The position numbers and the translations under genes were made by a program. DNA of 64,000 nucleotides from Salvelinus alpinus (taxonomy: Eukaryota; Chordata; Actinopteri; Salmoniformes; Salmonidae). The stretch lies in contig NC_092122.1 of the NCBI RefSeq assembly GCF_045679555.1, positions 10,403,543 to 10,467,542 of the forward strand, given 5' to 3'. Each line of letters begins with the position of its first letter. Positions within the stretch are counted from its first letter, which is position 1. The notes under the pieces were generated by a model that ran no database searches, was not told the DNA's origin, and saw only the letters and a list, made by a program, of their open reading frames with translations. Of this stretch, positions 8,960 to 57,134 are shown piece by piece.

Positions 8960-11900
8960 TCATGTCACAACATTAATTTGCACTATTTCGTCTGGTGTTG
9001 GCGACAGATCAAGCCGCTGCATCCTGTCATAAGGGAGAGAAAGTGTTTGAAATTCAACAGAGACGTAATAAGACCCCCTTCCCCACAAGGAAACACTGGT
9101 TGACCAGCCAATCTTACCATTTCCTTCTCCCAAACATTAGCACTCCAAACGCTGCAACCAGCAATGCAGTTACTACCACCCCACCTACACCTAGGATTTC
9201 CATTCAATGGGAACAAGAGAGAAACAAAACCATCAGGAGAAAGGACTCAGACTTACTTCCTGTTATACTCCTTCTCTCCCTCCCTGTAATCTGTTTGGTA
9301 GCCTACTCACCCGCATATATGGCTGTAGCAGAACTCTTCTCAGTGCTTCCACCTGAGAGTGAGAGAGAAAGAGAGACTGCATAAGTAAGTAAAAGTCTTG
9401 AGAGAGAGAGATTCACGAGTGTGGTAATAATGGTCAAAGAATGATGCCAGGAAATGGTTGTAGTGAGTGTGTAGTTAGCATGCCCATGCCAGGAGAGATC
9501 AGTGGGAGTGAAGCCAGCTGGCAGAGGAACACAGGCAGTTTTCTCTAAAGACTAGCATCGTCTAGAACAGCGGTTCCAAAACGAGGGGTCGCGACCCTAA
9601 GTGGGGTCACCGGATATAAAAATGGGGTCACAGGAAAATGTTCAATGTGTGGGGAGGCACCAGCACAGAAGCTCACATCAATACCTTTGTCAGATAACAC
9701 TGTTAAACAAATAATGTATGTGATTGCTAGCAATCAAGAGGAAACTGAGTGAACGACTCAAAAACTTCCCAGTTTATGCTCTCCAAATTAACGTTAGCTG
9801 TGAGGGCGGAGATGCCCATGCATTGACTTTTGTTCGCTATACATGTCGGACATAACGTTCTGTCTCACGATTCCCAAGCATGAAATGGCACAGGGGATGT
9901 TCAGTGTGCTGCGTGGCTATATTGACGAAAAACAGATTCCATGTGATCAAATGGTGGGCTTTGCACAGATGGGGCTCCATCTATGGTGGGAAGGTGGGCA
10001 GGCCTCTGCACCCTAGTTATGAATGTCTCCCTCTGCCATATTGACGAATTGTATGATACACCGAGAGCACCTGGCTGCAAAAGACCTGAGCACAGAACTC
10101 GGGAGATATACTGCAGCAGGTAACTTTGATTGTAAACTACATCAAACCACATCCACTGCGCGCACGCCTGTTCACAAAACTATGTGGAGATATGGGATCA
10201 GAGCATGACAACGTTCTATTTCACACCGAGGCTTGGTGGTTATCGAGGGGAGTATTGGAAAGATTTTTCACATTGATGGAGTAACTGTTGTCATTCATAA
10301 TGGATGTAACAAAAACAGACTTGGTTGAATTTCTGTGTAATGAAAATAAAATGTGTCTCCTTGCCTATGTAATAGACACATTTGGGAAACTGAACAAACA
10401 TTCTACAGATGACTGACCAAATCAGTGAATTCAGAGGAAAGACTTGTTATTGTAGAGTCTTTCAAAAGCCAACCATGTTTCTAACAGAAAACAGCATCAG
10501 TAAGGGAAAGGCCCCAAATAAAAAAGTAACATTGGCTGTTAATAACATTTAAATTACATTTAAATTACATTTTTTTCACATGGTTGGAGCCATGAGAATT
10601 TTCAGATATCAAAATCGGGTCGTGGGCCAAAGAGTTTTGGGAACCCCTGGTCTAGCATGAACAACAAAGAACAGTACACCAGAATGGACCATTACCCAAC
10701 ACAGATCCTTAAATAAATGCAACAAAAATATATCTGTACTATTCAATAGAGTGATATACTATGGGACAAGTCTCCTCACCGCCAACTGGATCCTCACTGG
10801 AGGCTGGGGTTCTGAAGACAGAAGTCACCGCACTGGACTTATCCACTGGCACTGATGTAAGGTCATCGATGATGGTGGTTGTCACTGTAACAGTAGTAAT
10901 GACCTCTTGGTTCTCTGTAACAGGATCCAGGGTTAGAGGGCAAAGGTCAGAGCAACAGTTTTAACTGACCTGTCCAACCATACCTCTCATAGAAGCACAT
11001 TGATCATTAACATACGGAGAGAAGAAAGGCAGCAATTGATGAAAATTGGGAGGGACATACGCAGTATTGGAGATAAAAGTGAACTGGGAGTGGTTGGTCT
11101 TGGGCTATTTCTCTCTGTGGGCACTGAGAGGTGCACTGTGGGAGATGGAGTTCTCTTGTGAGTTGTTGAAGCTGTTGGGGGAGAGAGGATAAAAGAGGTC
11201 AGTCATAAGAAATCAATACAGCCAGGGCAGGGACTTACAGTGCCTTCAGAGAGTATTCACACCCCTTGAATTTTTACACATTTTGTTGTGTTACAACCTG
11301 AATTTAAAATTGTTTGAATTTAAATTTGGTGTCACTGATCTACACACAACACCCCATAGTATCAAAGTGGAATTATGTTTTAGGAAATGTTTACAAGTGA
11401 ATTTAAAATGAAAATCTGAAATGTTTTGAATGTTGCTTAGCCACATAAGTTGCATGGACTCACTCGGTGTGCAATAATAGTGTTTAAAAGGTCTAATGCA
11501 GCTGTTTTTAGCTTAATATCAAATAATTTCTGGGTAACAATTAAGTAACTTACTGTGAAATGGTTAAAAAGAAACCAAAATAGCAACAATTTTGCTAGGA
11601 CTGTCTGGGAGTGGTCTGAGTCGGAGGGGGAAAGAAAATTTGCTGTTATTGGCAGAGGTTTGGAACTCTTTCTTATTGGTCTATTAACTAATTTACTGCA
11701 TGGTGATGTCACCATGTAGGCCAAAACATCATCCCTCCAAAACTGTTTGAAATTTCAGACGGGCTTTTCAAACAGCTCCTACACTAAAAGGGTATTGTCA
11801 TCATTTTTACAGTATTATTCCAACCTAGCATGGAAATATACAGTACCAGTCAAAAGTTTGGACACACCTACTCATTCAAGGGTTTTTCTTTATTTTTACT

Positions 11901-14900: not shown

Positions 14901-17900
14901 CAAGTCAGTTAAGAACAAATTCTTATTTACAATGACGGCCTACCCCGGCCTATGCTGTACCAATTGTGCGCCGCCCTATGGGACTCCCAATCCCGGCCCG
15001 GATGTGATACAGCCTGGATTCAAACCAGGGACTGTAGTGACGCCTCTTGCACTGAGATGCAGTGCCTTAGACTGCTGCACCACTCGGGAGCATTTACATA
15101 ACAATGGCTAACCGTGAAATGTAACCTTCTCACAAACGCAACAATCTTGAATGATGCCGTTGTTGATTTCGCTCGCCACAAGTCTTTAGTGTCGAACTCC
15201 TGATGGAAACACTAGAGCTGGCATTAACATAAAACACTGGTGACACCCTGGTGTGGGAGTAAGTCTAGATGGAAAAGTACCAATAAGGAACTGAGAACAA
15301 CTCTATAGAGTCTTTCACAGCCTGAAAACGAAATTAAAACTAGAGAGATGCTGGCTTTAATCTCACTGATCTCCCCTGACATGAAACTCACTACAACCAT
15401 TTCCTGCCATCCCGCTTTGGCAATTATTAACAACATTCATGAATGTCTCTTTTTCTCTCTCTGGCAGACAGGCAGGCAGGCAGGCATGCATGCAGACAGG
15501 CAATACTCACGTTCTATCGTAGTTGGAATAGATGGGTAGGCTGGAATAAGCATGCGAGAATCAGCCAGAAAATACACACATTTGTTCCAAATATCTAGTC
15601 TCATACCTGCTCTTTATATGTAAATGATATGCATTACAGATGTAGTCTATAGTTATTGTATAATTGGAATACCTGATCTTATAGGTGTGGCTTGTCTGTC
15701 TTAATGTGTCATAGGTGGGTAGCGCGTCTACTTACGTATGCATATCAGTGTTGGGCCTTCCCACTGAAGAACCTGATCAATTCGTTTGCACCTGATGCGA
15801 CTGGAGGTCCCCGCCATCCTCACATAGCCATCCACACACTGGTAGTGTACAAAGTAGTTTTCTTGATAACTATCCCACTTGTTCAGGGGCTTGGTGAGCT
15901 TCCACTGAGGCAGGGGTGGGCACACGTCTGAGGGGTGATGAGAAGGTGACTAAGTAAATAAGGTGTGTTCCCATAAAACTGGGGTGGAACCAAAGCCCCA
16001 AAGAATTATTGTGCTAGGACTGTCTGGGAGTGGTCTGAGTGGGGAGGAAAGGGCACCTAAGCAGTGCATAAACCACAATGTGGCTCAATCCACCAGATCG
16101 GAGGGACCTAATGGGAGGGATATGTAATCTGAAAATGAGCTGTTATTGGCAGAGAGGTTTCAAACTCTCTTTGTTATTGGTCAACTAATTTATACCATCT
16201 GGTGATGTCACCAGGCAAGCCAAAACTCCTAATCAGCACATTTTGCATGGATGAAGGCCCTGTGTAGATTGTATTTTCAACCAACAACTATTACATCACA
16301 CATTATCACAAAAACAAAATCACACTTTTACAGTGTTAGTTTCTTCAGTTGTTGCATAATATAATAAATAATACAGAAAGAAAATGCATTTTGACTGCAC
16401 TGGGCCTTTAACAATGTTTGCCATTACTCATGGTCTCTCTGGAAGGTTAGTAGAAAACATAGCACGAGAGGAAAGATATGTTTGAGTAGTGTTTTAAGGA
16501 CAATATAAGCAAGACAATGGGTGTGAATAGGGTTGCAAAGGGTCAGAAACTTTCCGGTAAATTTCTGGAAATCTTCCGCAAATTTTCCATGGGAAGTTAA
16601 GCCCGGGAATTTGGGGAATTTTGCTTAAATTCATCAAAAAAGTTAGCTTATAACAGTGAACCTTTTTTGTGGGATACACATAAGGCAATTCTAGGTCTTG
16701 TGGTATATTTTGGTTAAACTATTTTGGTTATACTATTCAATGGAATTGCAACCCTCAACATACACAGTGCATTCTTCCATCACATGTACAAGATCTTGCA
16801 CACTAATGAGATGATATTGAGCCCACACTACTACACTGTCTGAGCCAAGGACTACATGCTTTCTGGTTTTGATTACAATACTGGGTGGGATGAATATATT
16901 TTATATGACATACTGTCACGTTCTGACCTTAGTTCCTTTTTTATGTCTTTATTTTAGTTTGGTCAGGGCGTGAGTTGGGGTGGGCATTCTATGTTGTTTT
17001 TCTATGTTTTGTTCTAGTCGTTATATTTCTATGTGTTTGGCCTAGTATGGTTCTCAATCAGAGGCAGGTGTCGATCGTTGTCTCTGATTGAGAATCATAC
17101 TTAGGTAGCCTGTTTTCCCACTATGGGTTGTGGGTAGTTATTTTCTGTTTAGTGTTTTTGTTTGCACCTTTCAGAACTGTTTGTTTGTCGGTTTGTTGTT
17201 TTTGTTCAGTATTCATTCTTTATTAAATTATTATGAATACGTACCACGCTGCACTTTGGTCCTCTTCTCCTTCCACCAACGACAACCGTTACACATACAT
17301 GGTTTTTTGTTAACTAGTAAATAGTAGCCTACAGCAAAGTGTGTTCAAATAATTTCTAACTTGTTAACAACTTCTGCTAGTTAGTTTTTGCTACCATGTG
17401 GGTTTTAGCTTGCCTGATCCTGCTATCTGGAGTGTTAATTCACCTGTTTCCATACATGTTTCATTTTAAAATATGTATCTTACAACGAGTTGTTTAATCT
17501 GCTTAACTATTTATCTGTACATTGAATTGTATTTTATTTTATTTTTTTACTGATAAAATAATTTATATGTTTAAAGATAATGATTAAATAATTCTACCCT
17601 GAAACCCAACTATTAGGGATTATAGTTTATGTAGCATGTATAAGGAATAATTAAAGTATTAAACATAAGTATGTTAGAGAAATATGTGTGTATGTGTGTG
17701 CCTAAGAAAATACAGAGAACAATTCAACTGTGCTTGACCCGACCTGGCTAGAACTCTGAGAAATGTATGATAGGACAGGGAGTACTTCTCAAGGTTTCCC
17801 TAATCTCGGGGGAATGGAACTGTCGGCTGGGTAGTGATACACAGTGGTGAGAACTCTGGAGAAGGATACAACTCACCTACTGTTCGTGTGTATGTATGTG

Positions 17901-20311
17901 CGTAGGATATCTACTGTTTGTGCGTAAGTAAGGAGCCAGATATAAAATGGATGTCTTTGTATAATGGACTTCAGAGTGCTCTCGTGAATAAACGTTTTGA
18001 CTATTGTAAGCTGGGAAATCTGTCTGTTTCATTTAAACCAGAACTTTACAAACTCTGGGTTGCAGACTGAGTAGATTAATTGAAGTTTATGAACATTGAT
18101 AATGAAATTCTCATAACATTTACTCATTTTTTTCTAATCTTTACAGGAAAATGCCACGGGCACTATCTGATATGTGGAAACATTTCACTGTTGCTAATGT
18201 AGAAAGAAAAGCGGTGTACATTTGCAAATACGGTGCCAAATCATATCTGAAGAATGCAACAAAGATGCAGAATCATCTGGCCAAGTGCATAAAGTTCCCT
18301 CAGCGCTCACAACAAGCAACCTCTGACAAAAGTCCCTCTACTTCTATTCGAGGTGAAAATGATGAATCAGACACCTTATTCAATAGCAACAGCTCATGGT
18401 CCTCCTGGAATCATAAGTTATTTTGACTCAATGGAGGAACGTAGTCAGAGAAATGCTGATGAATGTCTTGCTCGAGCTGTGTACGCAACTGGTTCACCTC
18501 TGATGCTCACAGGCAATGTGTATTGGAAGAGATTTCTGAATGTTCTTCACCCAGCATACACCCCTCCAACCAGACATGCTTTATCTAGTAATTTGCTGGA
18601 TACAGAGTTCAACAGAGTTCAAGTGAAGGTCAAGCAAATCATAGAGAAAGCAGACTGTATTGCAATCATCTCTGATGGGTGGCCGAATGTTTGTGGGCAA
18701 GGAATAATTAACTACATCATCTCCACCCCTCAACCAGTATTCTACAAGAGCACAGACACAAGGGACAACAGACACACCGGTCTCTACATTGCAGATGAGC
18801 TGAAGGCAGTCATCAATGACCTTGGACAACAGAAGGTATTTGCACTGCTGACAGACAATTCTGCAAACATGAAGGCTGCTTGGTCTAAAGTGGAGGAGTC
18901 CTACCCTCACATCACACCCACTGGCTGTGCTGCTCATGCATTGAATCTGCTCCTCAAGGACATCATTTACATTTAACATTTAAGTCATTTAGCAGACGCT
19001 CTTATCCAGAGCGACTTACAAATTGGTGCATTCACCTTATGATATCCAGTGGAACAACCACTTTACAATAGTGCATCTAACTCTTTTAAGGGGGGGGGGG
19101 GTTAGAAGGATTACTTTATCCTATCCTAGGTATTCCTTAAAGAGGTGGGGTTTCAGGTGTCTCCGGAAGGTGGTGATTGACTCCGCTGACCTGGCGTCGT
19201 GAGGGAGTTTGTTCCACCATTGGGGTGCCAGAGCAGCGAACAGTTTTGACTGGGCTGAGCGGGAACTGTACTTCCTCAGAGGTAGGGAGGCGAGCAGGCC
19301 AGAGGTGGATGAACGCAGTGCCCTTGTTTGGGTGTAGGGCCTGATCAGAGCCTGAAGGTACGGAGGTGCCGTTCCCCTCACAGCTCCGTAGGCAAGCACC
19401 ATGGTCTTGTAACGGATGCGAGCTTCAACTGGAAGCCAGTGGAGAGAGCGGAGGAGCGGGGTGACGTGAGAGAACTTGGGAAAGTTGAACACCAGACGGG
19501 CTGCGGCGTTCTGGATGAGTTGTAGGGGTTTAATGGCACAGGCAGGGAGCCCAGCCAACAGCGAGTTGCAGTAATCCAGACGGGAGATGACAAGTGCCTG
19601 GATTAGGACCTGCGCCGCTTCCTGCGTGAGGCAGGGTCGTACTCTGCGAATGTTGTAGAGCATGAACCTACAGGAACGGGTCACCGCCTTGATGTTAGTT
19701 GAGAATGACAGGGTGTTGTCCAGGATCACGCCAAGGTTCTTAGCACTCTGGGAGGAGGACACAATGGAGTTGTCAACCGTGATGGCGAGATCATGGAACT
19801 GAAAACAATGTATACACTCTACAAGAGAGCCAAGGAAATGGTTAGGTATGTGAAGGGTCATCAAGTTATAGCAGTAATCTCCCTCACCAAGCAAAGTGCT
19901 GATGAGGGAAACTAAAACAAGAAGCTCCAGCGCTCAGGTCTGTTCAACGCTGGTCCGACCAATCTGATTCCACGCTTCAAGACTGCTTCGATCACGTGGA
20001 TTGGGATATGTTCCGCATTGCGTCCAACAACAACATTGAAGAATACGCTGATTCGGTGAGCGAGTTCATTAGAAAGTGCATCGGCGACGTAATACCCACA
20101 GCAACGATTAAAACATTCCCAAACCAGAAACCGTGGATTGATGGCAGCATTCGCGTGAAACTGAAAGCGCGAACCACTGCTTTTAACCAGGGCAAGGTGA
20201 CCGGAAACATGACCGAATACAAACAGTGTAGCTATTCCCTCCGCAAGGCAATCAAACAAGCTAAGTGTCACGGTTCATGAATCCACTGCCTCCCTCTCTC
20301 TTTCTCTTTCT

Positions 20312-20350
<39 letters not shown>

Positions 20351-26300: not shown

Positions 26301-26666
26301 GGCGTATAGGAGAATTCATCCTACCTTTCATGTGTCTAAAATAAAACCTGTGTTTCAGGCACGCATTAACCCGCCGGTCCCGGTTCCCCCGCCGCCACGA
26401 CTTGTTGATGGGGAACCCACCTTTTCTGTCAATCGTATTTTGGACTCTAGAAGGAGGGGACGCGGATTCCAGTACCTGGTGGACTGGGAGGGTTACGGTC
26501 CGGAGGAGAGAAGTTGGGTACCTGCTAGGGACATTCTGGATCACTCCCTTATCGATGATTTCAATCGACAGGTAAATTCGCCTGGGAACACCAAGAGGCG
26601 TTCCTAGGGGGGGGGGTTATTGTCACGGTTCATGAATCCACTGCCTCCCTCTCTCTTTCTCTTTCT

Positions 26667-26725
<59 letters not shown>

Positions 26726-29700
26726 GTGTTTGTGTGGGCGTGGTTCCCAATCTCGGCCTGATTGTCTGCGCCAGCTGGAATCACTTATCTTCCCTTTATA
26801 TGTTCTGTAACCAGTGTTTCTTGTTGTCAGATCGTTGTTACTTCCCTGAGGTTGTGTCGTGTGTCCGTGCTCATTCTCTCGCCGCCCTTGTGTGGATTAT
26901 CTTCAGTGCTCCTTCCTACCCATCCGGACACACTCCCCTGGATTTCTCAGCACGCTATAATCGGAAGATGCGCCCTAGTCCCTGGGTCGGATTCCGTCTG
27001 AGTACAGTCTGTCTGTCCTGTTGCTGCTGTAAACTGTATTCATTAAACCATCGTTGCTTGCATCTTGCATCCGCCTCTGTATTGTCACACTAAGTGCCAG
27101 TATAGAGACAAAGTAGAGTCGCAATTCAACAGCTCAGACACAAGAGGTATGTGGCAGGGTCTACAGTCAATCACGGATTACAAAAAGAAAACCAGCCCCG
27201 TCGCGGACCAGGATGTCTTGCTCCCAGACAGACTAAATACCTTTTTTGCTCGCTTTGAGGACAATACAGTGCCACTGACACGGCCCGCTACCAAAACCTG
27301 CGGGCTCTCCTTCACTGCAGCCGAGGTGAGTAAAACATTTAAACGTGTTAACCCTCGCAAGGCTGCAGGCCCAGACGGCATTCCCAGCCGCGTCCTCAGA
27401 GCATGCGAAGACCAGCTGGCTGGTGTGTTTACGGACATATTCAATCAATCCTTATCCCAGTCTGCTGTTCCCACTTGCTTCAAGAGGGCCACCATTGTTC
27501 CTGTTCCCAAGAAAGCTAAGGTAACTGAGCTAAACGACTACCGCCCCGTAGCACTCACTTCCGTCATCATGAAGTGCTTTGAGAGACTAGTCAAGGACCA
27601 TATCACCTCCACCCTACCTGACACCCTAGACCCACTCCAATTTGCTTACCGACCCAATAGGTCCACAGACGACGCAATCACAACCACAATGCACACTGCC
27701 CTAACCCATCTGGACAAGAGGAATACCTATGTGAGAATGCTGTTCATCGACTACAGCTCAGCATTTAACACCACAGTACCCTCCAAACTCGTCATCAAGC
27801 TCGAGACCCTGGGTCTCGACCCCACCCTGTGCAACTGGGTACTGGACTTCCTGACGGGCCGCCCCCAGGTGGTGAGGGTAGGTAACAACATCTCCACCCC
27901 GCTGATCCTCAACACTGGGGCCCCACAAGGGTGCGTTCTGAGCCCTCTCCTGTACTCCCTGTTCACCCACAACTGCGTGGCCATGCACGCCTCCAACTCA
28001 ATCATCAAGTTTGAAGACCGAGAGACTGAAAAACAGCTTCTATCTCAAGGCCATCAGACTGTTAAACAGCCACCACTAACATTTAGTGGCCGCTGCCAAC
28101 ATACTGACTCAACTCCAGCCACTTTAATAATGGGAATTGATGGAAATGTATGTAAAAATGTATCACTAGCCACTTTAAACAATGCCACTTAATATAATGT
28201 TTACATACCCTACATTACTCATCTCATATGTATATGTATATACTGTACTCTATATCATCTACTGCATCTTGCCATCTTTATGTAATACATGTATCACTAG
28301 CCACTTTAAACTATGCCACTTTATGTTTATATACCCTACATTACTCATCTCATATGTATATACTGTACTCTATACCATCTACTGCATCTTGCCTATGCCG
28401 TTCTGTACCATCACTCATTCATATATCTTTATGTACATATTCTTTATCCCTTTACACTTGTGTGTATAAGGTAGTAGTTGTGGAATTGTTAGGTTAGATT
28501 ACTCGTTGGTTATTACTGCATTGTCGGAACTAGAAGCACAAGCATTTCACTACACTCGCATTAACATCTGCTAACCGTGTGTATGTGACAAATACAATTT
28601 TGATTTGAAGTGAGAAGAATAAGAGCACCACATTGAAGCTGCCCAGCAACACCCGAGAGAGTGGTAAGCAGCCTGAAACTCTTGAAACCTATAGCAGTAG
28701 CCATTGCACGGATTGAGGGAGACAATGCCATCCTGTCTGATATTCAGACTCTGCTTGCAGATGTAGAGAAGAAATCCGTACTGCTCTGCCCACTTCACTG
28801 TTGCTCCAAGCAGAGGAAACTGCAGTTCTGAAATACATCAAAAAGCGTGAAGACTTTGCCTGAAACCCATACACGCCGCAGCGAATACGTTGGACCCCAA
28901 GTATGCTGGCAAGAGCATCCTGTCTGGTGCAGAGATCAACAAGGCCTATGGTGTCATCACTACCGTGTCTCGCCACCTTGGCTTGGATGAGGGCAAGGTT
29001 CTTGGCAGTCTCGCGAAGTACACTTCCAAGCAAGGGCTTTGGGATGGAGATGCAATATGGCAGTCGTGCCAACATATCTCATCAGCCACCTGGTGGAAGG
29101 GACTTTGTGGATCTGAGGCTCTTTCCCCTGTTGCCTCCATCATCCTCCAAATCCCACCGACGTCAGCCGCCTCAGAGCGCAACTGGTCCTGGTTTAGGAA
29201 CACACACAGCACGCGAAAGGTTGACCAATACAAGGGTTGAAATATTGGTGACCACCCGGGCAAATTTTAGGCTTTTTGAGCCTGACAACGAGCCTGACAA
29301 CGAGCCATCCTCAACAAGGTTGGAAAGTGACAGTGAAGATGAGGCCTCAGATGTTCACGAGGTGGACATTGAGGAGGTCATTGAAGAGGTCCAGGGAGAA
29401 GACAAGGGGAAGACAACCAAAGCTTTAGTTTCTCGACTATCATTTTACAGATGTATGTTGAAAAATATTTTTGGGAGATGCGATGGATCATTGGGCATCA
29501 TTCAATATTCAGTGAAATCATCCCATGTGAAGAGTCAACTTATTTAATTAAAGTTTAATTCGGAATTAAATAGTTTTTGAAAATGTATATTGGAAGGATT
29601 TAATAATTTGCAATTATGTCTACTTATGATTGTCACGTCCGTCGTTAGAATGAGACCAAGGCGCAGCGTGGTATGCGTACATTCTCTTTTAATGAATGAA

Positions 29701-32700
29701 CACCGAACAAACCAACAAAATGAACAAACGAAACGTGAAGCTATACAACTAGCGCTGACAGGCAACTAAACATAGACTAGATCCCACAAACACAAATGAG
29801 GAAATGGCTACCTAAATATGATCCCCAATCATAGACAACGATAAACGGCTGCCTCTGATTGGGAACCATATCAGGCCACCATAGAAATACAAAAACACAG
29901 AGATGACCCACCCAAGTCACTGTCACGCCCCAACCAACACAGAGAAGAAACAGCTTACTATGGTCAGGGCGTGACAGTGTGCGGACTCCGACCGCAAAAC
30001 CTGACTCAATCGGGGAGGGTCTGGGTGGGCATCTATGATGGATGACGCAGGGCGAAGGGAGCGGCTCCGGTGCGGGACGAAGTACCCACTCCACTCGCAG
30101 ATACGTCTTCCTCCATGGCGGCTCTGGTGCGGGGATCATCGCCGGAAGCTCCGAACCGTGGGTCGTCGCTGGAGGCACCGGACCGTGGATCGTCCCCGGA
30201 GGCTCCGGACTGAGAACCCCCGCCGAAGGCTCTGGACTGCAGATCGTCGCTGGAGGCTCTGGACCGCCGACCGTCGCTGAAGGCTTCGTCGCTGGAGGCA
30301 CCGGACCGTGGATCATCGCCGGAGGCTCTGAACTGGGAACCACCACTGGAGGCTCGGACTGCAGATCGTCGCCGGAGGCTCCGGACCGGGGACCGTCGCT
30401 GGAGGCTCCGGACCGCAGACCGTCTCAGGAGGTTCCGGACCGCGGACCGTCTCAGGAGGTTCCGGACCGCGGACCGTCTCAGGAGGTTCCGGACCGTGGA
30501 CCGTCTCAGGAGGTTCCGGACCGTGGACCGTCGTTGGAGGTTCCGGACTGTGAAACGTCGCCGGAAGCTCTGGACCGGGAACTGTCGCCAGAAGCTCTGG
30601 ACTGGGAACTGTCACCGGAAGCTCTGGACTGGGAACTGTCACCGGAAGCTCTGGACTGGGAACTGTCACCGGAAGCTCTGGACTGGGAACTGTTGCCAGA
30701 AGCTCTGGACTGGGAACTGTCGCCGGAAGCTCTGGACTGTGGAGGCGCACTGGAGGCCTGATGCGTGGGACCGGTACAGGTGGCACCAGGCTGATGACAT
30801 GCACCTCAGGGCGAGTGCGGGGAAGAGGCACAGGACGTACTGGACTGTGGATGCGCACCGGAGACCTGATGTGTGGGACCGGTACAGGTGGCACCGGGCT
30901 GATGACACGCACCTCAGCACGCCCGCTCTGCAGCGCTCTCAATGCTAGCACCTCTCTCCGGAATCTTGCGTCGAGTTCCTCACTCAACTCCCTGACTGGC
31001 TCTGGTTCACTCCTCGGCTCCGCCGACTGCTCCATGTGCCCACCAATTTATTTTTTATTGGGGTTTCTGTGGCCTTCCTCCCCAACGTCGTTGCTGTCCT
31101 CTCATGCTCCTAGGCGACTCCCGCCAAGGAAGGCGATCCTGTCCTGCCAGGATTTCCTCCCAAGTACAGGATCTCTTCCCAAGTCCAGGATACTTCCTCC
31201 TCCTAGGCACGCTACTTGGTCCTTTGTTGGTGGGATCTTCTGTCACGTCCGTCGTTAGAATGAGACCAAGGCGCAGCGTGGTATGCGTACATTCTCTTTT
31301 AACGAATGAACACCGAACAAACCAACAAAATGAACAAACGAAACGTGACGCTATACAACTAGCGCTGACAGGCAACTAAACATAGACAAGATCCCACAAA
31401 CACAAATGAGGAAATGGCTACCTAAATATGATCCCCAATCATAGACAACGATAAACGGCTGCCTCTGATTGGGAACCATATCAGGCCACCATAGAAATAC
31501 AAAAACACAGAGATGACCCACCCAAGTCACTGTCACGCCCCAACCAACACAGAGAAGAAACAGCTTACTATGGTCAGGGCGTGACAGTGTGCGGACTCCG
31601 ACCGCAAAACCTGACTCAATCGGGGAGGGTCTGGGTGGGCATCTATGATGGATGACGCAGGGCGAAGGGAGCGGCTCCGGTGCGGGACGAAGTACCCACT
31701 CCGCTCGCAGATACGTCTTCCTCCATGGCGGCTCTGGTGCGGGGATCATCGCCGGAAGCTCCGAACCGTGGGTCGTCGCTGGAGGCACCGGACCGTGGAT
31801 CGTCCCCGGAGGCTCCGGACTGAGAACCCCCGCCGAAGGCTCTGGACTGCAGATCGTCGCTGGAGGCTCTGGACCGCCGACCGTCGCTGAAGGCTTCGTC
31901 GCTGGAGGCACCGGACCGTGGATCATCGCCGGAGGCTCTGAACTGGGAACCACCACTGGAGGCTCGGACTGCAGATCGTCGCCGGAGGCTCCGGACCGGG
32001 GACCGTCGCTGGAGGCTCCGGACCGCAGACCGTCTCAGGAGGTTCCGGACCGCGGACCGTCTCAGGAGGTTCCGGACCGTGGACCGTCTCAGGAGGTTCC
32101 GGACCGTGGACCGTCGTTGGAGGTTCCGGACTGTGAAACGTCGCCGGAAGCTCTGGACCGGGAACTGTCGCCAGAAGCTCTGGACTGGGAACTGTCACCG
32201 GAAGCTCTGGACTGGGAACTGTCACCGGAAGCTCTGGACTGGGAACTGTCACCGGAAGCTCTGGACTGGGAACTGTTGCCAGAAGCTCTGGACTGGGAAC
32301 TGTCGCCGGAAGCTCTGGACTGTGGAGGCGCACTGGAGGCCTGATGCGTGGGACCGGTACAGGTGGCACCAGGCTGATGACATGCACCTCAGGGCGAGTG
32401 CGGGGAAGAGGCACAGGACGTACTGGACTGTGGATGCGCACCGGAGACCTGATGTGTGGGACTGGTACAGGTGGCACCGGGCTGATGACACGCACCTCAG
32501 CACGCCCGCTCTGCAGCGCTCTCAATGCTAGCACCTCTCTCCGGAATCTTGCGTCGAGTTCCTCACTCAACTCCCTGACTGGCTCTGGTTCACTCCTCGG
32601 CTCCGCCGACTGCTCCATGTGCCCACCAATTTATTTTTTATTGGGGTTTCTGTGGCCTTCCTCCCCAACGTCGTTGCTGTCCTCTCATGCTCCTAGGCGA

Positions 32701-35700
32701 CTCCCGCCAAGGAAGGCGATCCTGTCCTGCCAGGATTTCCTCCCAAGTCCAGGATCTCTTCCCAAGTCCAGGATACTTCCTCCTCCTAGGCACGCTACTT
32801 GGTCCTTTGTTGGTGGGATCTTCTGTCACGTCCGTCGTTAGAATGAGACCAAGGCGCAGCGTGGTATGCGTACATTCTCTTTTAACGAATGAACACCGAA
32901 CAAACCAACAAAATGAACAAACGAAACGTGACGCTATACAACTAGCGCTGACAGGCAACTAAACATAGACAAGATCCCACAAACACAAATGAGGAAATGG
33001 CTACCTAAATATGATCCCCAATCAGAGACAACGATAAACGGCTGCCTCTGATTGCGAACAATATCAGGCCACCATAGAAATACAAAAACACCTAGATGAC
33101 CTACCCAAGTCACTATCACGCCCCAACCAACACAGAGAAAAAACAGCTTACTATGGTCAGGGCGTGACAATGATAAGGTAAAAGGTTTATGTTTCTGTCT
33201 CCATATATGGTAAATATATCAAATGCAAAAAACATCTACATTTAAATGATATTAATATTAATTTGCATATATTTCCATGAATTCCCATATATTCCTGTTA
33301 ATTCCCATATATTCCCGTTAATTCCCACGAACAGTTTCCACCTCTAAATTAGGGTCGGGCAATATGGCAAAAATAGTACATCACGGTTAAAAAATTTTTT
33401 TTTTACGGTATGACGATATTTATGTTTTCTAATAATAAAAGTTCAAAATTTGCTTTATGAGTAGTGTCTCAACACATACATTCTAAGTGATTTCAATGGG
33501 TCTTTCTCCATTCTGATTGTTTTATACTGTTCAATTCAACTTCAACCAAAAAAATGTCATAATTTTCATAAATTTCTGCATTTGAGATCATGTCTACTCT
33601 GCCACGTAGGGCTACACAATATGGGCAAGCAATCTGGGCCTCATTTTTAACCAAATGTTGCAATTTAGAGCAAAACACTTGGGTTAACTGTTGGAATAAT
33701 GGAAATAGAATGTCTATTATAATTATTTATTTACTATATAATAGTGGGCACTTTGAATACAGTGCTGTTTGACATGACAATGAATGAAAATGCCAGGGAG
33801 GAGTTGTGTCAGGGTAGGATCTTAAGTGTTTATATGCCTTTTCTAGGGGACCTTATAATCTTTGGCTACATTGAATGTTTTCTCTTAGCTACTTCATGTA
33901 GCTAACACATTCTTGCTTTGTGTTTACCTATTTAATTTAGAAGATACTGTTGCACAAACAACATGCTGATATAGGTCTACACCATCACTGGTATTCTCAG
34001 GCTGTATAGCTAATTACGCTTGCTCTTACTCAGTGCATTTATTAGCTAGATAGCTAGCGATTAGCATTAGCGTCTAACAATCAGCGGCTAATAAGATTTA
34101 GGAACAACTAGATAAGAAAAGACAAACGAGCTGTTTGCAGATGTAAGAAACACAAGCTAATAGTGTAATTATAGAATGCTAGTAGATTTATATTAAGAAG
34201 CAAAGTGACAACTGTATCGTTGTCATCAACATTGTTGCATGTGCTGCATAGACCAGGCAGACTGAATGCAAGTGTCTCGTGGTTGAGGAAAAACAAATGC
34301 GCTCCTTGAGTGACACAAGCTGGGCATACTAGGTCTGTGTGGAAAGCGCATGAAGAGAGTGATGACTCAAGTAGCGAAGTAAACTATAAAAATGGGTGTT
34401 ACACACTGCGTATTACATTTAACAAACCAAACATTCAAATACCGTTATAGAAGGTAAAGTAAAAACCCAAACCGGTCCGTGCATCAATATCGTAAAAACG
34501 GTATACAGCCCTGCCCTACTCTGAATATTCCACAAAATGTGCAACCCCGGGTGCCAAAATGTTTAACTATTACATTCCAGAGAGCCTTTAAAAGAGCCTT
34601 CATTGGGTTGGCCCACAGATGTGGCAGGTTCCTGTCATGTCAAATAGTGTCCACTGCCAAATTGTGTTCAACCCCTGTTTCACAATAGGCTAAAACAGGG
34701 TCACACATGGTGTTGTTTGGTAATTTTAAAAATCTTCATGGTATCAAAAGTATACACCTCACACACATATGGTTATTGGCGCAAATTGAAGAAGACACCT
34801 GTACCATGTCAGATATTGAGTTGAAATGCAGTCTGAGTTTACATCCCAATATTACACTAATATACAACACAGAAGCTCAAAAAATAAAAAACTCTAGTTT
34901 GTTTTTGAGGTGTGCATGAAGAGTACTATTCAAAGATGCTCTGTTGGTCAATATTTCCCTTCGGTGAATCCCTATCATCTTGTCAACAAGCAGATATCTT
35001 TTACCAATCTGTCTGTATAGGCTTTTATCCATAACAAGTCCCAGGCATCAAATCTTCTGTTTCTGGAGTATGAATCCTCTTAATGTACAAGTATACACCC
35101 GAATCTGTCACAGGGCCTTACCCCCAATCCACTCCTTAATGCTGTGTGCCAAGCAGAGAGGAATCAGGTCCCATTTATAGTCTTTGGTAGGACTTACCCG
35201 GGGATTGAACTCCCAACCTTCCAATCTCAGGTTGGGAGGCTGCTGAGGTTGTTTTACATTTCAAAAATCTCTCCAAAATGTATTTAAAAATATATATATT
35301 TCTATCAACTTATATAAAAACAAAAAAATTATGGCCAAAATGACATTCTTTGATTATAGACAATAACTTTTTCATGTTTTCATGAGTGTTTGAGTTTAGG
35401 TCCATAACTGGCCTCTGTCTGCTTAGACTGCTTTCAGGGTAAGGTAACATGGTTTCTTTCAGCATTTCTCAAACAGGGATCGGTGATTAGGCCCTCTTCC
35501 TCTGGGGACCATTTGGGTAAAGAATAATTGCCCATTGCTTTTTTAAATTAAAAACACACATTTTTCTTTACTAACACATAGGCTATGATTGATTTAAGAC
35601 AGCTTGATTGTCCATGTTATTACTATTTCATTCTCTATTTTAGGACACCTGGTAGTATCTGAAACAAATGTGTAAAAACTATTTGATGAAACTGCACTAA

Positions 35701-37977
35701 ATAACACACAAACACATTGAGTGTACAAAACATTGAGTTGCACCCCCTTTTGCCCTCAGAACAGCCTGAATTAGTAGGGGCATGAAATCTACAAGGTGTT
35801 GAAAGCGTTCCACAGGGAAGCCGGCCCATGTTGAATGCTTCCCACAGTTGTGTCAAGTTGGCTGGATGTCCTTTGGGTGGAGGACCGTTTTTGATACACA
35901 CGGGAAACTGTTGAGTGTGAAAAACCCAGCAGCGTTGTAGTTATTGACACACTAAAACCGGTGCACCTGGCACCTACTACCATACCCTGTCCAAAGGCAC
36001 TTAAATATTTTGTCTTGCCCATTCATCCTCTGAATGGCACACATACCCAATACATGTCTCAATTGACACAAGGCTTAAAAATCCGTATTTAACCTGTCTC
36101 CTCCCCTTCATCTACACTGATTGAAGTGGATTTAACAAGTGACATCAATAAAGGATCATAGCTTTCACCTGGTCAGTCTATGTCACCGTTCCATGTAGAA
36201 CCCTTTCGCCAGAGGGTTCTACATGGAACCAAAAGGTGTTCTACCTGGAACCAAAAAGGGTTCTCCTATGGGGACAGCCGAATAACCCTTTTTTCAAAGC
36301 GTGTATGAGAGAATGATAGTTCTACCTGGAACCAAAAGGGTACTACCTGGAACCAAAAAGGGTTATTTTAGGTTCTAGATAACACCTTTTAAGAGTGTTG
36401 TTCAATCTATGCGGATGGCAGCCCCCAACAGGTGAGTAGCATCCTCAACAACACACACAGACACACCAAATAACCATTCATGAATAAATAACAGAAAGAA
36501 AAAAACATATGCTTATTATTCAGTGTGAAATAAATGAATAAATAGTAAGTAAGGGATAAAACACAGACGTTCTGTAACATTACCTTGGAATTATACAACG
36601 AGTGGGTCTAATCCTGTATGCCAATTGGTTAAAACCGCATTCTAGCTGGTGTCTATTCCACAAGTTACCACCTACTAAATCTATGACATTGAAATGCGTA
36701 TTTACTCTGTTCCATCTGACTGCGCAATCCACTGTCTCATCAGCTCAGCCAGGTAATGCATACTGAACAAAAATATAAACGCAACATGTAAAGTGTACCA
36801 TGTTTCATGAGCTGAAATAAAAGATCCCAGAAATATTTCATACACACAAAAAGCTTATTTCTCTCAAATATTGTGCACAAATTTGTTTACATCCCTGTTA
36901 GTGATAATTTCTCCTTTGCCAAAATAATCCATCCACCTGACAGGTGTGGCACATCAAAAAGCTGATAAAACAGCATGATCATTTATTTCAAAGGTGCACC
37001 TTGTTGGGACAATAAAAGGCCACTCTAAAATGTGCAGTTTTGTCATACAACACAATGCCAGCAATTCTTTGAGGGAGCGTGCCTGACTGCTGGAATGTCC
37101 ACCAGAGCTGTTGCCAGAGAATTGAATATTAGTTTCTCTACCATTAGCCGCCTCCATCCTCGTTTTAGAAAATTTGGCAGTATGTCCAAACAGCCTCACA
37201 ACTGCAGGACAAGTGTAATCATGCTAGCCCCTCTTACATCCAGCTTCTTCACCTGTGGGATGATCTGAGGCCGCTATTGTTGTTCAGTATTTACACTAGA
37301 TCTACACTGTAAAAAGCATCTAGACATTATCTCCCATTTCTTTAAGACTAGCATTTGGTTAAATGTTATTTCTAACAGTAAATGTGTGCTTATAGTATTG
37401 TTTTATTTGGTAACTGTGGTATAAACGGCGTAAACAAACGCAAAATACTACAAGTTGCCGTTATTCTGACTGAAGAGCCGGGGCGTGACTTTGTAGCTGT
37501 AGCTAGCAGTAAGCAAGGGATACGAACGTTGCCGCTGAGCATGGCAAACGAACATAAAGAACGAACGACTGGGTCGCTTATTTAGCTAGATAAATAGTTT
37601 GCTGATAGCAAACCTGCTTATATGACAACTGAATAAAAAAAAATATCAGTTTCTGAAAACAGCTGGTCAAACTAGAAACATGGGAGGATAAATATCGAAC
37701 TAGCAACCAAAATATAAGAAAGTGTGAATACGCTTAAAAAATTTAAATCAAAGGAAGAAAAAATTCCACAGGTAAATGTTTTATTTGGCAACTGTGCTAT
37801 AAGCGGGATAAACAACGCCGTTCTGTAAAATACCTTGTAAAAATTAACTCTGCAAAGGGACGACGTTTATCCCTTACTATACATAATTGTAACAGACAAA
37901 ATGTACTGACCTCGCCTTACAATATTGAGTCGACACACTTTGATGATAAAAAGGAGGGAAAGGAGACGCAGCCGCAT
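8960..37977 (-). CDS. il15ra: Interleukin-15 receptor alpha (sushi-domain cytokine receptor), six exons
   Basis: Membrane receptor chain that binds IL-15 through one sushi/CCP domain and presents it to the IL-2/15 receptor beta and gamma chains. Exons on the minus strand: 1, 37977-37911 (signal peptide, [15 protein letters not shown]...); 2, 15927-15736 (sushi, CPPLPQWKL ... [11 protein letters not shown] ... WEGPTLICI, four Cys); 3, 11171-11061 (Pro/Ser/Thr stalk, [11 protein letters not shown]); 4, 10914-10780 (Thr-rich stalk, [12 protein letters not shown]); 5, 9190-9118 (membrane span [16 protein letters not shown] then GRRKW); 6, 9023-8960 (tail [20 protein letters not shown], stop TGA). 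Every junction has GT/AG. Exons 1 to 4 end in phase 1 and exon 5 in phase 2, all compatible, giving about 213 aa. The AGTSS...C...W..P.L.CI pattern is that of IL-15R alpha sushi domains. Exon 1 is the least certain: it is picked by phase, a weak signal peptide and the ISRE nearby. Intron 1 is about 22 kb, nearly all transposons. A close alternative name is the fish CD25-like chain. Confidence 0.72.
9568..10649 (+). mobile_element. hAT (Charlie/ZBED5-SCAND3-type) transposon, internally deleted
   Basis: The ends are an imperfect inverted pair: cagcggttccaaaacgaggg at the left, and cagggg ttcccaaaac read from the right. They are flanked by an 8-bp duplication, gtctagaa (9560-9567) and gtctagca (10650-10657), one mismatch apart. 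The size is 1082 bp. Inside are decayed transposase words of the ZBED5/SCAND3 family, for example [14 protein letters not shown] (about 10050-10095) and an upstream [13 protein letters not shown]-like region, without a long frame. It lies in the il15ra intron between the membrane-span and stalk exons. Confidence 0.8.
11841..13412 (+). mobile_element. Inner Tc1-like transposon (cagtaccagtcaaaagtttg family)
   Basis: Inverted ends cagtaccagtcaaaagtttg (11841) and caaacctttgactggtactg (to 13412), with TA before the left end. The length is 1572 bp. The transposase is badly decayed: it begins at 12254 (MARTAQISK) and hits a stop within 10 codons. Around 12670-12740 a foreign-looking stretch replaces part of the catalytic domain. 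Confidence 0.88.
12744..13178 (+). pseudogene. Tc1 transposase C-terminal half, catalytic Glu lost
   Basis: A 144-codon open stretch covers the second half of the DDE domain: [34 protein letters not shown] (second Asp present), [11 protein letters not shown] and the usual tail [17 protein letters not shown]. Where the family has NPIE, this copy reads NPIV, so the catalytic glutamate is a valine. The first Asp region (WSDET-like) is missing upstream. It is not functional. Confidence 0.82.
13713..13879. mobile_element. hAT-type palindromic MITE with perfect 8-bp duplication
   Basis: A 167-bp foldback with arms ggcgtttccctaaccaaggg and its complement at the right (ccgagtttgggaaacaatgc), and an inner palindrome around ctacacagctgattcaaa. 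It is flanked by identical 8-bp cttaggtc (13705-13712 and 13880-13887), the size typical of hAT insertions. A related copy is at 59920-60110. Confidence 0.82.
14311..14740 (-). mobile_element. tRNA-derived SINE, long form
   Basis: Read on the minus strand it starts with a tRNA-like head (gtggcgaagttgtctaaggc as A-box region; the B-box is decayed) and continues into a long GC-rich body (cgaccgggagacccatgggg, cacaattgggccaacgtcgt). It ends with a GA/CT microsatellite tail (14314-14330 on the plus strand). No protein is coded; the open frames here are incidental. The SINE family name is not recalled with certainty. Confidence 0.65.
14868..15091 (-). mobile_element. tRNA-derived SINE, short form
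   Basis: On the minus strand: head gagtggtgcagcagtctaag (A-box-like), B-box-like tggtttgaatcc, middle cccatagggcggcgcacaat, and tail ttgttcttaactgacttgca ending in taaataaaggttaaa. The tail is shared with the SINEs at 39467-39680 and 56372-56572, but the tRNA-like head differs. Confidence 0.75.
16010..16400. repeat. Interspersed repeat, unnamed
   Basis: Shares long blocks with 11575-11840 (gctaggactgtctgggagtg, tgttattggcagag, ggtgatgtcaccatg/ggtgatgtcaccagg). Neither copy has clear ends or coding capacity. It looks like an old DNA-transposon or SINE-like repeat dispersed in il15ra introns. Confidence 0.5.
16914..17293 (+). mobile_element. Solo LTR of a Ty3/Gypsy-type retrotransposon
   Basis: A 380-bp block begins tgtcacgttctgacc and ends ccgttaca, flanked by a perfect 5-bp duplication catac (16909-16913 and 17294-17298). 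It contains tattaaatt as a polyadenylation-like signal near 17221. There is no internal region, so it is a solo LTR left by LTR-LTR recombination. It is related to the 346-bp LTRs at 29631-33169 (shared tctctgattg, accacgctgc) but in the opposite orientation. Confidence 0.85.
17600..18070 (+). other. Unassigned stretch, possible solo LTR
   Basis: It contains a TATA box (tataaaat, 17941) followed 45 bp later by AATAAA (17987-17992), a spacing typical of a retroelement U3/R region. It lies in the hAT where no transposase is expected. I could not find a convincing TG...CA boundary pair or target duplication, so the call is tentative. Confidence 0.3.
18151..18976 (+). pseudogene. hAT transposase, BED zinc finger and N-terminal core, frameshifted
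   Basis: Starts [20 protein letters not shown] just after a good splice acceptor (ctttacag). It carries a BED-like finger in the first 50 residues (ICKYG; H..KC near aa 43-48, with the first Cys pair partly lost). A frameshift near 18350-18400 moves the reading to a second open stretch, 18353-18976, with typical hAT words: [32 protein letters not shown], and [13 protein letters not shown] (near the conserved C..H.LNL motif). It is cut at about 18970 by a LINE insertion. Not functional. Confidence 0.78.
18970..19797 (-). pseudogene. 5'-truncated LINE, reverse transcriptase C-terminal region and 3' tail
   Basis: Minus-strand reading from about 19797 to 19121 gives the post-palm part of a fish LINE polymerase: [50 protein letters not shown], and [15 protein letters not shown]. 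The untranslated 3' end follows (18970-19120) with the widespread fish motif ctcttatccagagcgactta (plus strand, about 18998-19020). The catalytic palm is missing, so the copy was 5'-truncated on insertion. It lies within hAT transposase sequence, which resumes at 19797. Confidence 0.8.
20266..20714 (+). repeat. Gypsy 5' LTR
   Basis: 449 bp, TG...CA ends, with a CT microsatellite near its start (about 20317-20348). attcattaaa near 20665 may act as the polyadenylation signal. The upstream 5-mer is ctaag. Confidence 0.95.
20733..21680 (+). CDS. Gypsy gag polyprotein
   Basis: Retrotransposon capsid/nucleocapsid protein, about 315 aa from ATG 20733 ([16 protein letters not shown]), 18 bp after the left LTR. 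It shows an N-terminal coiled-coil-like Gln-rich stretch (aa 20-55), a Pro-rich linker, the retrotransposon gag core (about aa 75-215; [38 protein letters not shown]) and one CCHC zinc knuckle near the end, [14 protein letters not shown]. Stop TAG 21678-21680. No lesions are seen. The upstream in-frame ATG at 20679 lies in the LTR and is not preferred. Confidence 0.9.
   Translation: MDAASSTSLTEFISRSITRMDQQEENISSTGRAVQALATQVSQLTQQLQHLRGLAAPPTPAVQPAPPEPDSQLEPRLPTPEGYSGDPDYCRAFLTRCSMHFSLQPRTFNREQSKVAFVLTLLSGKAALWGTAVWANQDPCCTSFQTLSEEMRRVFDRAVAGREAARLLADLRQGDRSVSEYSIQFRTLAAECQWNEEAQWDMFLHGLEDRIQKEIYVLDLPRSLNGLVELALRVDARLSRIGRRACPNRPYNDTEGWHASGGNTASSASAHEPMQLGRARLSREERERRRSQGLCLYCGRAGHFIHSCPVKDQAR
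22301..23905 (-). mobile_element. Tc1-like transposon inserted in Gypsy pol
   Basis: Inverted ends cagtggggagaacaagtatt (22301) and ttgttctccccactg (to 23905) are flanked by TA (22299-22300 and 23906-23907). The length is 1605 bp. The transposase runs on the minus strand. It interrupts the codons between protease and reverse transcriptase. Confidence 0.93.
22517..23537 (-). pseudogene. Tc1 transposase (antisense to Gypsy pol), frameshifted near its N-terminus
   Basis: The start would be at about 23537 (MAKTRE). The N-terminal HTH is spread over two frames (23472-23266 reads [20 protein letters not shown]). From 23404 to 22517 a 295-codon frame is open, carrying [19 protein letters not shown] (the family has WSDET, so the first Asp is Val here), [24 protein letters not shown] (second Asp), [13 protein letters not shown] (Glu) and a normal C-terminus ending GFCTKY. 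Lesions are frameshifts near 23480 and around 23300, plus loss of the first catalytic Asp. Otherwise it is well preserved. Confidence 0.85.
26621..27089 (+). repeat. Gypsy 3' LTR
   Basis: 469 bp, identical by eye to the 5' LTR except for a CT run longer by 20 bp. It is followed by the duplicated ctaag. Confidence 0.95.
27095..28192 (+). pseudogene. LINE reverse transcriptase domain, catalytic motif deleted
   Basis: It reads RT blocks in order: [64 protein letters not shown] (first catalytic Asp), and [16 protein letters not shown]. Then, immediately after ASNSIIKF, where the family has the FADD box, it jumps to [12 protein letters not shown] and 3' sequence. So an internal deletion removed the F/YADD active site and everything after it. 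The copy was dead before or independent of the Gypsy insertion. Confidence 0.8.
28609..29560 (+). pseudogene. hAT transposase C-terminal region
   Basis: Continuation of the transposase cut at 18970 and 19905. In shifting frames it codes hAT words: [20 protein letters not shown] (28890 on) and then the dimerisation segment [20 protein letters not shown] followed by [19 protein letters not shown] (about 29080-29210). The 3' part is Glu/Asp-rich ([20 protein letters not shown]) and ends in untranslated sequence before the LTR array. Frameshifts are frequent. Confidence 0.75.
29631..29976 (-). repeat. LTR copy 1 of tandem element
   Basis: 346 bp. It differs from copy 2 at a handful of sites, for example aatgaatg versus aacgaatg, gtgaagc versus gtgacgc, and tagactag versus tagacaag. 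Confidence 0.88.
30316..31035 (-). CDS. Pro-rich repeat ORF of tandem element, body 1 (gag-like position)
   Basis: A 240-codon open frame starting [20 protein letters not shown] about 200 bp after the LTR on the element's sense strand, where gag would lie. The first 45 residues are charged and helical-looking. The rest is Pro/Val/Ser-rich, built of 9-residue units such as SPELPVTVP and GPEPPETVR (27-bp DNA repeats). There is no zinc knuckle or enzyme motif. Plus-strand frames of 239 and 150 codons are also open, because a 27-bp repeat keeps all frames in phase; so coding is possible but not proven. Confidence 0.45.
31241..31586 (-). repeat. LTR copy 2 (central) of tandem element
   Basis: 346 bp, shared between the two bodies. 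Its right half resembles copy 1 (atagacaacg, agaagaaaca) and its left half resembles copy 3 (aacgaatg, gtgacgct), a mosaic expected from unequal exchange between LTRs. Confidence 0.88.
31926..32618 (-). CDS. Pro-rich repeat ORF of tandem element, body 2
   Basis: A 231-codon frame, same as the body 1 product apart from one 9-residue unit (GPEPPETVR) fewer. That 27-bp unit fully accounts for the 27-bp difference in body length. Conservation of the frame between both copies is equally explained by recent duplication, so it is weak evidence for coding. Confidence 0.45.
32824..33169 (-). repeat. LTR copy 3 of tandem element
   Basis: 346 bp. It carries private changes in its right half (agagacaacg, attgcgaaca, cacctagatgacctac, agagaaaaaaca), making it the most diverged of the three on that side. 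Confidence 0.88.
33350..34518. mobile_element. Non-autonomous hAT-like element nested near the right end of the large hAT
   Basis: Ends tagggtcgggcaatatggca and, from the right, tagggcagggctgtataccg. Flanking 8-mers ctctaaat (33342-33349) and ctctgaat (34519-34526) match at 7 of 8. The size is 1169 bp, AT-rich, with no transposase recognised. A run of T/A follows the left end. Confidence 0.7.
34557..35715. other. il15ra intron 1 sequence without clear features
   Basis: AT-rich, short frames only. One tRNA-like B-box string occurs on the minus strand (gggagttcaatccccg, about 35193-35208) with no convincing A-box or cloverleaf. Confidence 0.35.
35718..36180 (-). mobile_element. Tc1-derived non-autonomous element (gtgtacaaaacatt family), copy 1
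   Basis: It starts gagtgtacaaaacattgag and matches the copy at 55991-56719 over most of its length. On the minus strand it encodes only the Tc1 transposase N-terminus (from [20 protein letters not shown] at 36022, HTH with [13 protein letters not shown]); the catalytic domain is absent. The right inverted end is lost here. Confidence 0.72.
36185..36400. repeat. Short repeat with iterated ggttctacctggaacc units
   Basis: Several near-copies of tacctggaaccaaaaagggt and its inverse (ccatgtagaaccctttcgcc) form an imperfect foldback. No coding content. This kind of repeat is familiar from fish introns, but I do not know its name. Confidence 0.5.
36763..37287 (+). mobile_element. Internally deleted Tc1-like element (aaaatataaacgcaac family)
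   Basis: Left end ctgaacaaaaatataaacgc (36763). The right end, ...attgttgttcag (to 37287), is short. TA lies on both sides (36761-36762, 37288-37289). The length is 525 bp. It keeps only the transposase N-terminal HTH ([20 protein letters not shown], near 37100-37155). It is related to the decayed copy at 3353-4625. Confidence 0.8.

Positions 37978-43228: not shown

Positions 43229-43272
<44 letters not shown>

Positions 43273-49602: not shown

Positions 49603-57134
<7,532 letters not shown>

Follow-up and report, generated by a model that had tools for sequence, protein, structure and literature searches.

Evidence for a duplicated il15ra gene with differing cytokine-contact residues in the salmonid Salvelinus alpinus

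Introduction

In fish, IL-15R alpha is considered a shared chain for IL-2, IL-15 and IL-15L. Small exons resembling parts of such a receptor lie scattered among mobile elements in a 64,000-nucleotide stretch of the Salvelinus alpinus genome (C37:10403543-10467542 of 2.37 Gb, hereafter the window). Do they form a complete il15ra gene, and what does a second copy elsewhere in the genome imply for the receptor? We consider it very probable that the window carries an intact il15ra gene on its minus strand and that this gene is one of two duplicates in the genome, a joint claim on identity, structure and origin.

Eight exons form one reading frame

The il15ra gene extends on the minus strand from a start codon at 37977 to a stop codon ending at 8960. 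Eight exons, all on that strand, join in one frame with AG acceptors and GT donors at every junction and encode 237 aa, as compared to 239 aa for grouper IL-15R alpha (PMC10705774). E1 (37911..37977) contains the start codon and a putative signal peptide (22 protein letters), proposed from hydrophobicity and with an uncertain 3' border. E2 (15736..15927) encodes the sushi (CCP) domain, recognised from its translation and from the second copy, with four Cys and the motifs AGTSS and W..PTLICI. It is followed by a linker exon of 30 nt and 10 protein letters (E3, 15511..15540) and a Ser/Thr/Pro stalk exon (E4, 11061..11171), both kept in the second copy on contig C11, then by a Thr-rich stalk exon (E5, 10780..10914), about 42 nt shorter than the C11 E5 stretch. 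The juxtamembrane exon E6 (9311..9352; 42 nt, 13 protein letters) is also kept in C11. E7 (9118..9190) encodes the transmembrane segment, as judged from its translation, a C11 match and a published IL-15RA reverse primer that is exact over the exon start. Finally, E8 (8960..9023) encodes a short cytoplasmic tail and the stop codon, supported by translation and a C11 match. The predicted protein thus reads as a candidate signal peptide, a single sushi domain, a Ser/Thr/Pro stalk, one membrane span and a short tail, the span being read from the translation and the signal peptide from a hydrophobicity scan. All four sushi cysteines lie inside the 192-nt E2; the IL15RA sushi is described as mostly encoded by a single exon (PMC3894449).

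The initial annotation had proposed a six-exon gene. Those six exons do join in frame, with AG/GT borders, to give 213 aa plus stop, and E3 (15540-15511) and E6 (9352-9311) have to be added to them. Both are phase 1-1, bordered by AG and GT, and conserved in the second copy. Since their omission leaves the frame unbroken, the shorter chain looked complete. The expected main splice junctions would be 15736-15540, 15511-11171, 10780-9352 and 9311-9190, while 15736-11171 and 10780-9190 would represent exon skipping.

A tRNA scan of the window found none, a phage collection queried with the sushi protein gave no match, which says little, and a single-sequence structure prediction of the sushi exon was set aside (mean pLDDT 49).

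A second copy lies in a collinear block

A genome search with the sushi exon gave two matches at E <= 0.001 (12 candidates scored), the gene's own locus and C11:34611301-34611492, with 80% identity. A membrane-span/tail query recovered the two il15ra loci and one further match at E 7.8 (4 candidates scored). Collinearity between the C11 block and the window extends over most of the latter (111 blastn pieces; the matches listed are those with low repeat cover). All eight il15ra exons are recognisable at the corresponding C11 places with matching phases, and six of the eight have equal lengths, the exceptions being E5 (135 nt in the window, 189 nt in C11) and E6 (42 and 39 nt).

The C11 model encodes 254 aa. 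In this copy, the AG homologous to the window E5 acceptor is lost (C11:34616503-34616741), and use of the following AG would put the exon out of frame. We modelled C11 E5 with an in-frame AG located 12 nt upstream, an inferred choice on which the intact C11 frame rests. C11 E5 may also be spliced differently or skipped, and skipping it would keep the frame as well.

The two genes therefore share their eight exons, their phases and the collinear block. They differ in that the C11 copy keeps Arg26, Lys36 and Leu42, has a longer E5, and has an intron 1 of 4.6 kb instead of 22 kb. Because the block is duplicated and collinear and the exons match salmonid primers, the two copies are most likely ohnologs of the salmonid whole-genome duplication.

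Small exons, exon 1 and the long first intron

Whether the short exons exceed chance was assessed by searching 16100-8900 for phase-1-1 exons with reasonably good splice sites, which gave 18 raw candidates. Ten rows pair with the identical scan in C11, and all ten correspond to E2, E3, E4 and E6 themselves or to variants that overlap either of the last two. E5 and E7 are outside this paired list, E7 because its other end has a different phase and E5 apparently because it fails the acceptor filter; the scan says nothing on either. Among the phase-1-1 exons conserved in C11, no second sushi exon was found in 16100-8900; the model has one sushi exon, and IL2RA has two sushi domains.

For exon 1, 229 ATG-to-GT candidates were counted in about 24 kb, 12 of them strongly hydrophobic, so that the choice of a signal-peptide exon from the window sequence taken by itself is weak. 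Comparison with C11 narrows the choice. Six rows of at least moderate hydrophobicity are matched there, and three of the six start at the ATG of position 37977. Two of the remaining rows are far less hydrophobic in C11; the last, which abuts E2, is only moderate in both. The ATG at 37977 is thus the only strongly hydrophobic start among the candidates matched in C11 by the filters used, and the signal-peptide exon proposed earlier is retained at this start. Its 3' border is ambiguous: GTCAGT after 37911, an unusual donor, or GTAAGG after 37878, both conserved in C11 and in phase with each other. The 59 nt directly after the GTCAGT border (37910-37852), inside which GTAAGG lies, are identical in both copies; over the first 250 nt of intron 1, 41 of 242 aligned positions differ. 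Exon 1 may be 100 nt long, with GTAAGG as its donor, and the identical stretch may correspond to this longer exon or to a regulatory element.

The first intron measures 21983 nt in the window versus 4582 nt in C11 and contains mobile-element pieces, in agreement with the long, transposon-filled intron of the initial annotation. Most of this length maps to an 18-kb insertion (16528..34548) of nested mobile-element pieces that is missing at the corresponding C11 point. The alignment leaps from window position 34549 to 16527 at a single C11 point, and the insertion edges carry a 9-bp near-duplication (ttggcaccc / ttcacaccc) where C11 has one ttcacaccc. One nested insertion would therefore explain most of the intron length. 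Its ends, read by eye, resemble short inverted repeats, and hAT-like, gypsy-like and Tc1-like frames were named by eye within it. Separately, at 29777-32958 inside the insertion, two tandem copies of a roughly 1.6-kb unit carry long open frames, on both strands, that encode repetitive peptides.

The cytokine-contact face differs between the copies

The il15ra product would be a single-sushi membrane chain, composed of a signal peptide, the sushi domain, a Ser/Thr-rich stalk, one span and a short tail. From work on trout IL-15R alpha, its sushi face would bind IL-15, IL-15L and IL-2 and display them, either in cis or in trans, to cells with IL-2R beta and gamma-c; those cells would then signal through STAT5. 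Trout IL-2, IL-15 and IL-15L were reported on the cell surface, or there in higher amounts, upon co-expression of bovine or trout IL-15R alpha (PMC7658486).

In a simulation study, Arg24, Arg26, Arg35, Lys36, Ser40, Leu42 and Ile64 of human IL-15R alpha are at the interface with IL-15 (PMC6767322), and Arg26 and Arg35 are also named as contacts in PMC3894449. The C11 copy keeps six of these seven residues, all but Arg24. The window copy keeps three (Arg35, Ser40 and Ile64), and His26, Met36 and Arg42 replace Arg26, Lys36 and Leu42. Positions are given in human IL-15R alpha numbering, which we take to apply to the PDB-based alignment of the C11 copy. The copies differ at 4 of the 7 contact positions versus 9 of the 57 other sushi positions (one-sided Fisher 0.027), a contrast that is only suggestive, the counts being hand-entered and chosen post hoc. 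When polarised by the mammalian sequence, the window copy is the one changed at 26, 36 and 42, and the C11 copy at 41. The changes at these three contact positions suggest that the window copy would bind at least one of IL-15, IL-15L and IL-2 in another way, or less tightly, than its C11 counterpart.

A more specific reading, which we hold only tentatively, is that the copies have divided their ligands, the window copy having been reshaped at its contact face in favour of a single salmonid ligand among IL-2A, IL-2B, IL-15, IL-15La and IL-15Lb. The denser differences at contact positions, the fact that it is the window copy that changed at 26, 36 and 42, and the presence of five such ligands in salmonids (PMC6070626) are consistent with this idea. 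On the other hand, the sushi dN/dS is indistinguishable from 1 (15 nonsynonymous and 3 synonymous changes; ratio 1.58, bootstrap 0.60-6.15), sushi nonsynonymous change is not above that of noncoding sequence at the gene edges (Fisher 0.79), and the comparison rests on two sequences. The fullest version is quite unlikely: two intact salmonid IL-15R alpha genes, of which the window copy, with its face rebuilt (His26, Met36, Arg42), would prefer a different member of the IL-2/IL-15/IL-15L set and substitute for the missing IL-2R alpha.

The reading frame is intact in both models

Changed contact residues could also mark a gene that is being lost. The coding exons of the two models contain no stop, no frameshift and no net frame-breaking length difference. 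In 14 hand-picked syntenic noncoding blocks (5147 aligned bases), 76 of 81 indels are not multiples of three, which leads to an expectation of 10.5 such events in 711 nt (Poisson 2.8e-5). In globally aligned noncoding sequence at the gene edges (2389 bases), 25 of 29 indels are not multiples of three, and 7.4 events would be expected in 711 nt (Poisson 5.9e-4). Zero net frame-breaking differences against 7.4-10.5 expected argues that the frame was maintained by selection during much of the time since duplication. The test pools both copies, gives no date for a loss of constraint in a single copy and depends on the C11 E5 acceptor chosen.

Substitution rates point to a loosely constrained protein. 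Over the whole gene, the copies differ by dN 0.111 and dS 0.116 (bootstrap of the ratio 0.61-1.70). In the same blocks, with exon pieces picked by eye, pN/pS is 0.11 for rbm17 (292 codons) and 0.20 for pfkfb3 (344 codons). By these comparisons, the il15ra protein is fast-evolving or weakly constrained; such rates do not part positive selection from relaxed constraint. Nonsynonymous differences occur at 54 of 522 sites, a share that looked high beside the 350 of 5147 (6.8%) of the blastn-selected noncoding blocks. This apparent excess is not claimed, as globally aligned gene-edge noncoding sequence gives 267 of 2389 (11.2%; Fisher 0.64). This edge set is uneven, with pieces ranging from 0.8% to 24.4%, and its 5' flank may be partly misaligned.

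We find it unlikely that the window copy has recently begun to decay, with a frame still open but no longer a receptor of any importance, and that the C11 copy does the work. What would fit such decay is that dN, dS and gene-edge noncoding divergence are all about equal, that contact residues 26, 36 and 42 are changed, that E5 has lost 42 nt relative both to the C11 copy and to the published primer, and that intron 1 has received an 18-kb insertion. Against it stand the AG/GT borders at all model junctions, a frame free of stops and frameshifts, and, in the pooled test, the net absence of the 7.4 to 10.5 frame-breaking differences expected under no constraint. Overall, the window copy probably still works as a cytokine-presenting chain.

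The sushi domain of the second copy and the neighbouring genes point to IL-15R alpha

By its own sequence, the window sushi is hardly closer to IL-15R alpha than to IL-2R alpha. In a phmmer search of PDB, IL-15R alpha chains score 25.9, 22.7, 21.2 and 20.4 bits, and IL-2R alpha chains at most 22.0 bits, over one stretch. The top match by E-value is a multi-sushi CD55 chain whose 30.1 bits are summed over weak domains; among the five alignments listed, the best single domain is that of IL-15R alpha 2psm, with 25.7 bits, and the next reaches 13.5. In Pfam, the whole protein has a sub-threshold Sushi match (15.7 versus a cut-off of 20.7 bits), its other match being a sub-threshold DUF6479. The C11 sushi is clearly that of IL-15R alpha: IL-15R alpha chains rank first to third (38.5, 33.0 and 30.6 bits), and IL-2R alpha gets no more than 15.7. 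Moreover, the C11 alignment continues into E3, where DPSI faces DPSL of IL-15R alpha 2psm, in support of E3 being a true linker exon. Arg35, reported as conserved throughout IL-2R alpha and IL-15R alpha molecules (PMC3894449), is kept in both copies (YVRMAGTSS in the window, YVRKAGTSN in C11).

The surroundings fit the mammalian il15ra locus. On the plus strand of the window lie the coding exons of rbm17 (approximately 41328..47229; PDB Splicing factor 45, E 1.4e-45, with a G-patch) and those of pfkfb3 (approximately 52050..55190; PDB PFKFB3, E 1.8e-112 versus 2.4e-103 for PFKFB2). FBH1 is immediately left of the window on C37, which places il15ra between FBH1 and RBM17. In mammals, PFKFB3 is the next gene of the locus, and the gene orientations fit. 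The neighbours FBH1, RBM17 and PFKFB3 thus match the mammalian arrangement. The tetrapod cluster is described as ANKRD16, FBH1, IL2RA, IL15RA and RBM17, and the fish locus as a single receptor (PMC9465101). With mammalian IL15RA, the window copy has in common a sushi carrying Arg35, Ser40 and Ile64 and the FBH1 and RBM17 neighbours; unlike it, no second sushi gene is recognised alongside, and Arg24, Arg26, Lys36 and Leu42 are changed. The FBH1-bearing stretch of C37 matches two places on C11 about 18 kb apart (C11:34631684-34633489 and C11:34649919-34651744), as if fbh1, whole or in part, had been tandemly duplicated.

That the gene belongs to another sushi family, IL-2R alpha or a complement regulator, is very improbable. 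In its favour, CD55 heads the list for the window sushi, the Pfam Sushi match is weak, and the gap between the best IL-15R alpha chain and the IL-2R alpha chains is under 4 bits. Against it, the model has a single sushi exon, the C11 copy leaves no ambiguity, FBH1 and RBM17 adjoin, and IL-2R alpha has two sushi domains and is reported as not found in teleosts (PMC6070626). The earlier identification as il15ra, a single-sushi type I receptor, is supported by the exon layout, by synteny and by a second copy with a clear IL-15R alpha sushi.

Relation to known salmonid il15ra

Rainbow trout IL-15R alpha, or CD25-like, was cloned in 2007 (Fang et al. 2007, as cited in PMC10705774 and PMC9465101). 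Trout il15ra is placed on chromosome 21 (PMC11162110), trout LOC110500135 is named 'interleukin-15 receptor subunit alpha-like' (PMC8467531), an Atlantic salmon identifier is ENSSSAG00000057898 (PMC10616884), and an IL-15RA primer pair was published for NM_001124572 (PMC4878077). With the trout cDNA and these salmonid names in print, the suggestion that gene finders may miss the gene finds no support.

The forward primer of that pair falls in E5 and the reverse primer in E7. These positions suggest that salmonid il15ra transcripts include both exons. The forward primer differs from C11 by one mismatch; its best fit in the window gene has 7 mismatches, its site being in the missing E5 stretch. 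The reverse primer fits the window E7 perfectly and C11 with one mismatch. As regards which copy corresponds to the cloned trout gene, the two primers are thus split, the forward one nearer to C11 and the reverse one exact in the window. This pattern suggests that the window copy is without an E5 stretch that is present in the reference cDNA NM_001124572. Rainbow trout IL-15R alpha is likewise a single-sushi salmonid chain, and differs in that its reference cDNA has this stretch.

Among the open-access literature matches listed, two salmonid il15ra copies were not described, which is a weak negative. In PMC6070626, IL-2R alpha is given as not found in teleosts and trout is counted with one such chain (CD25L), two beta and two gamma chains; elsewhere in the same source, some fish species are credited with a pair of isoforms for each. 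If both copies are intact and differ in their contact residues, this receptor count would change, and it would become possible to test directly how duplication divides up a shared cytokine receptor. Given that trout IL-15R alpha is known and that salmonid papers name il15ra, the window il15ra is in itself an ordinary gene; its specialist interest might lie in an intact pair whose cytokine-contact residues differ.

Elsewhere in the window, a long minisatellite (44906-46095) between rbm17 exons is open in several frames and encodes repeats of the YTHVRTSQL type.
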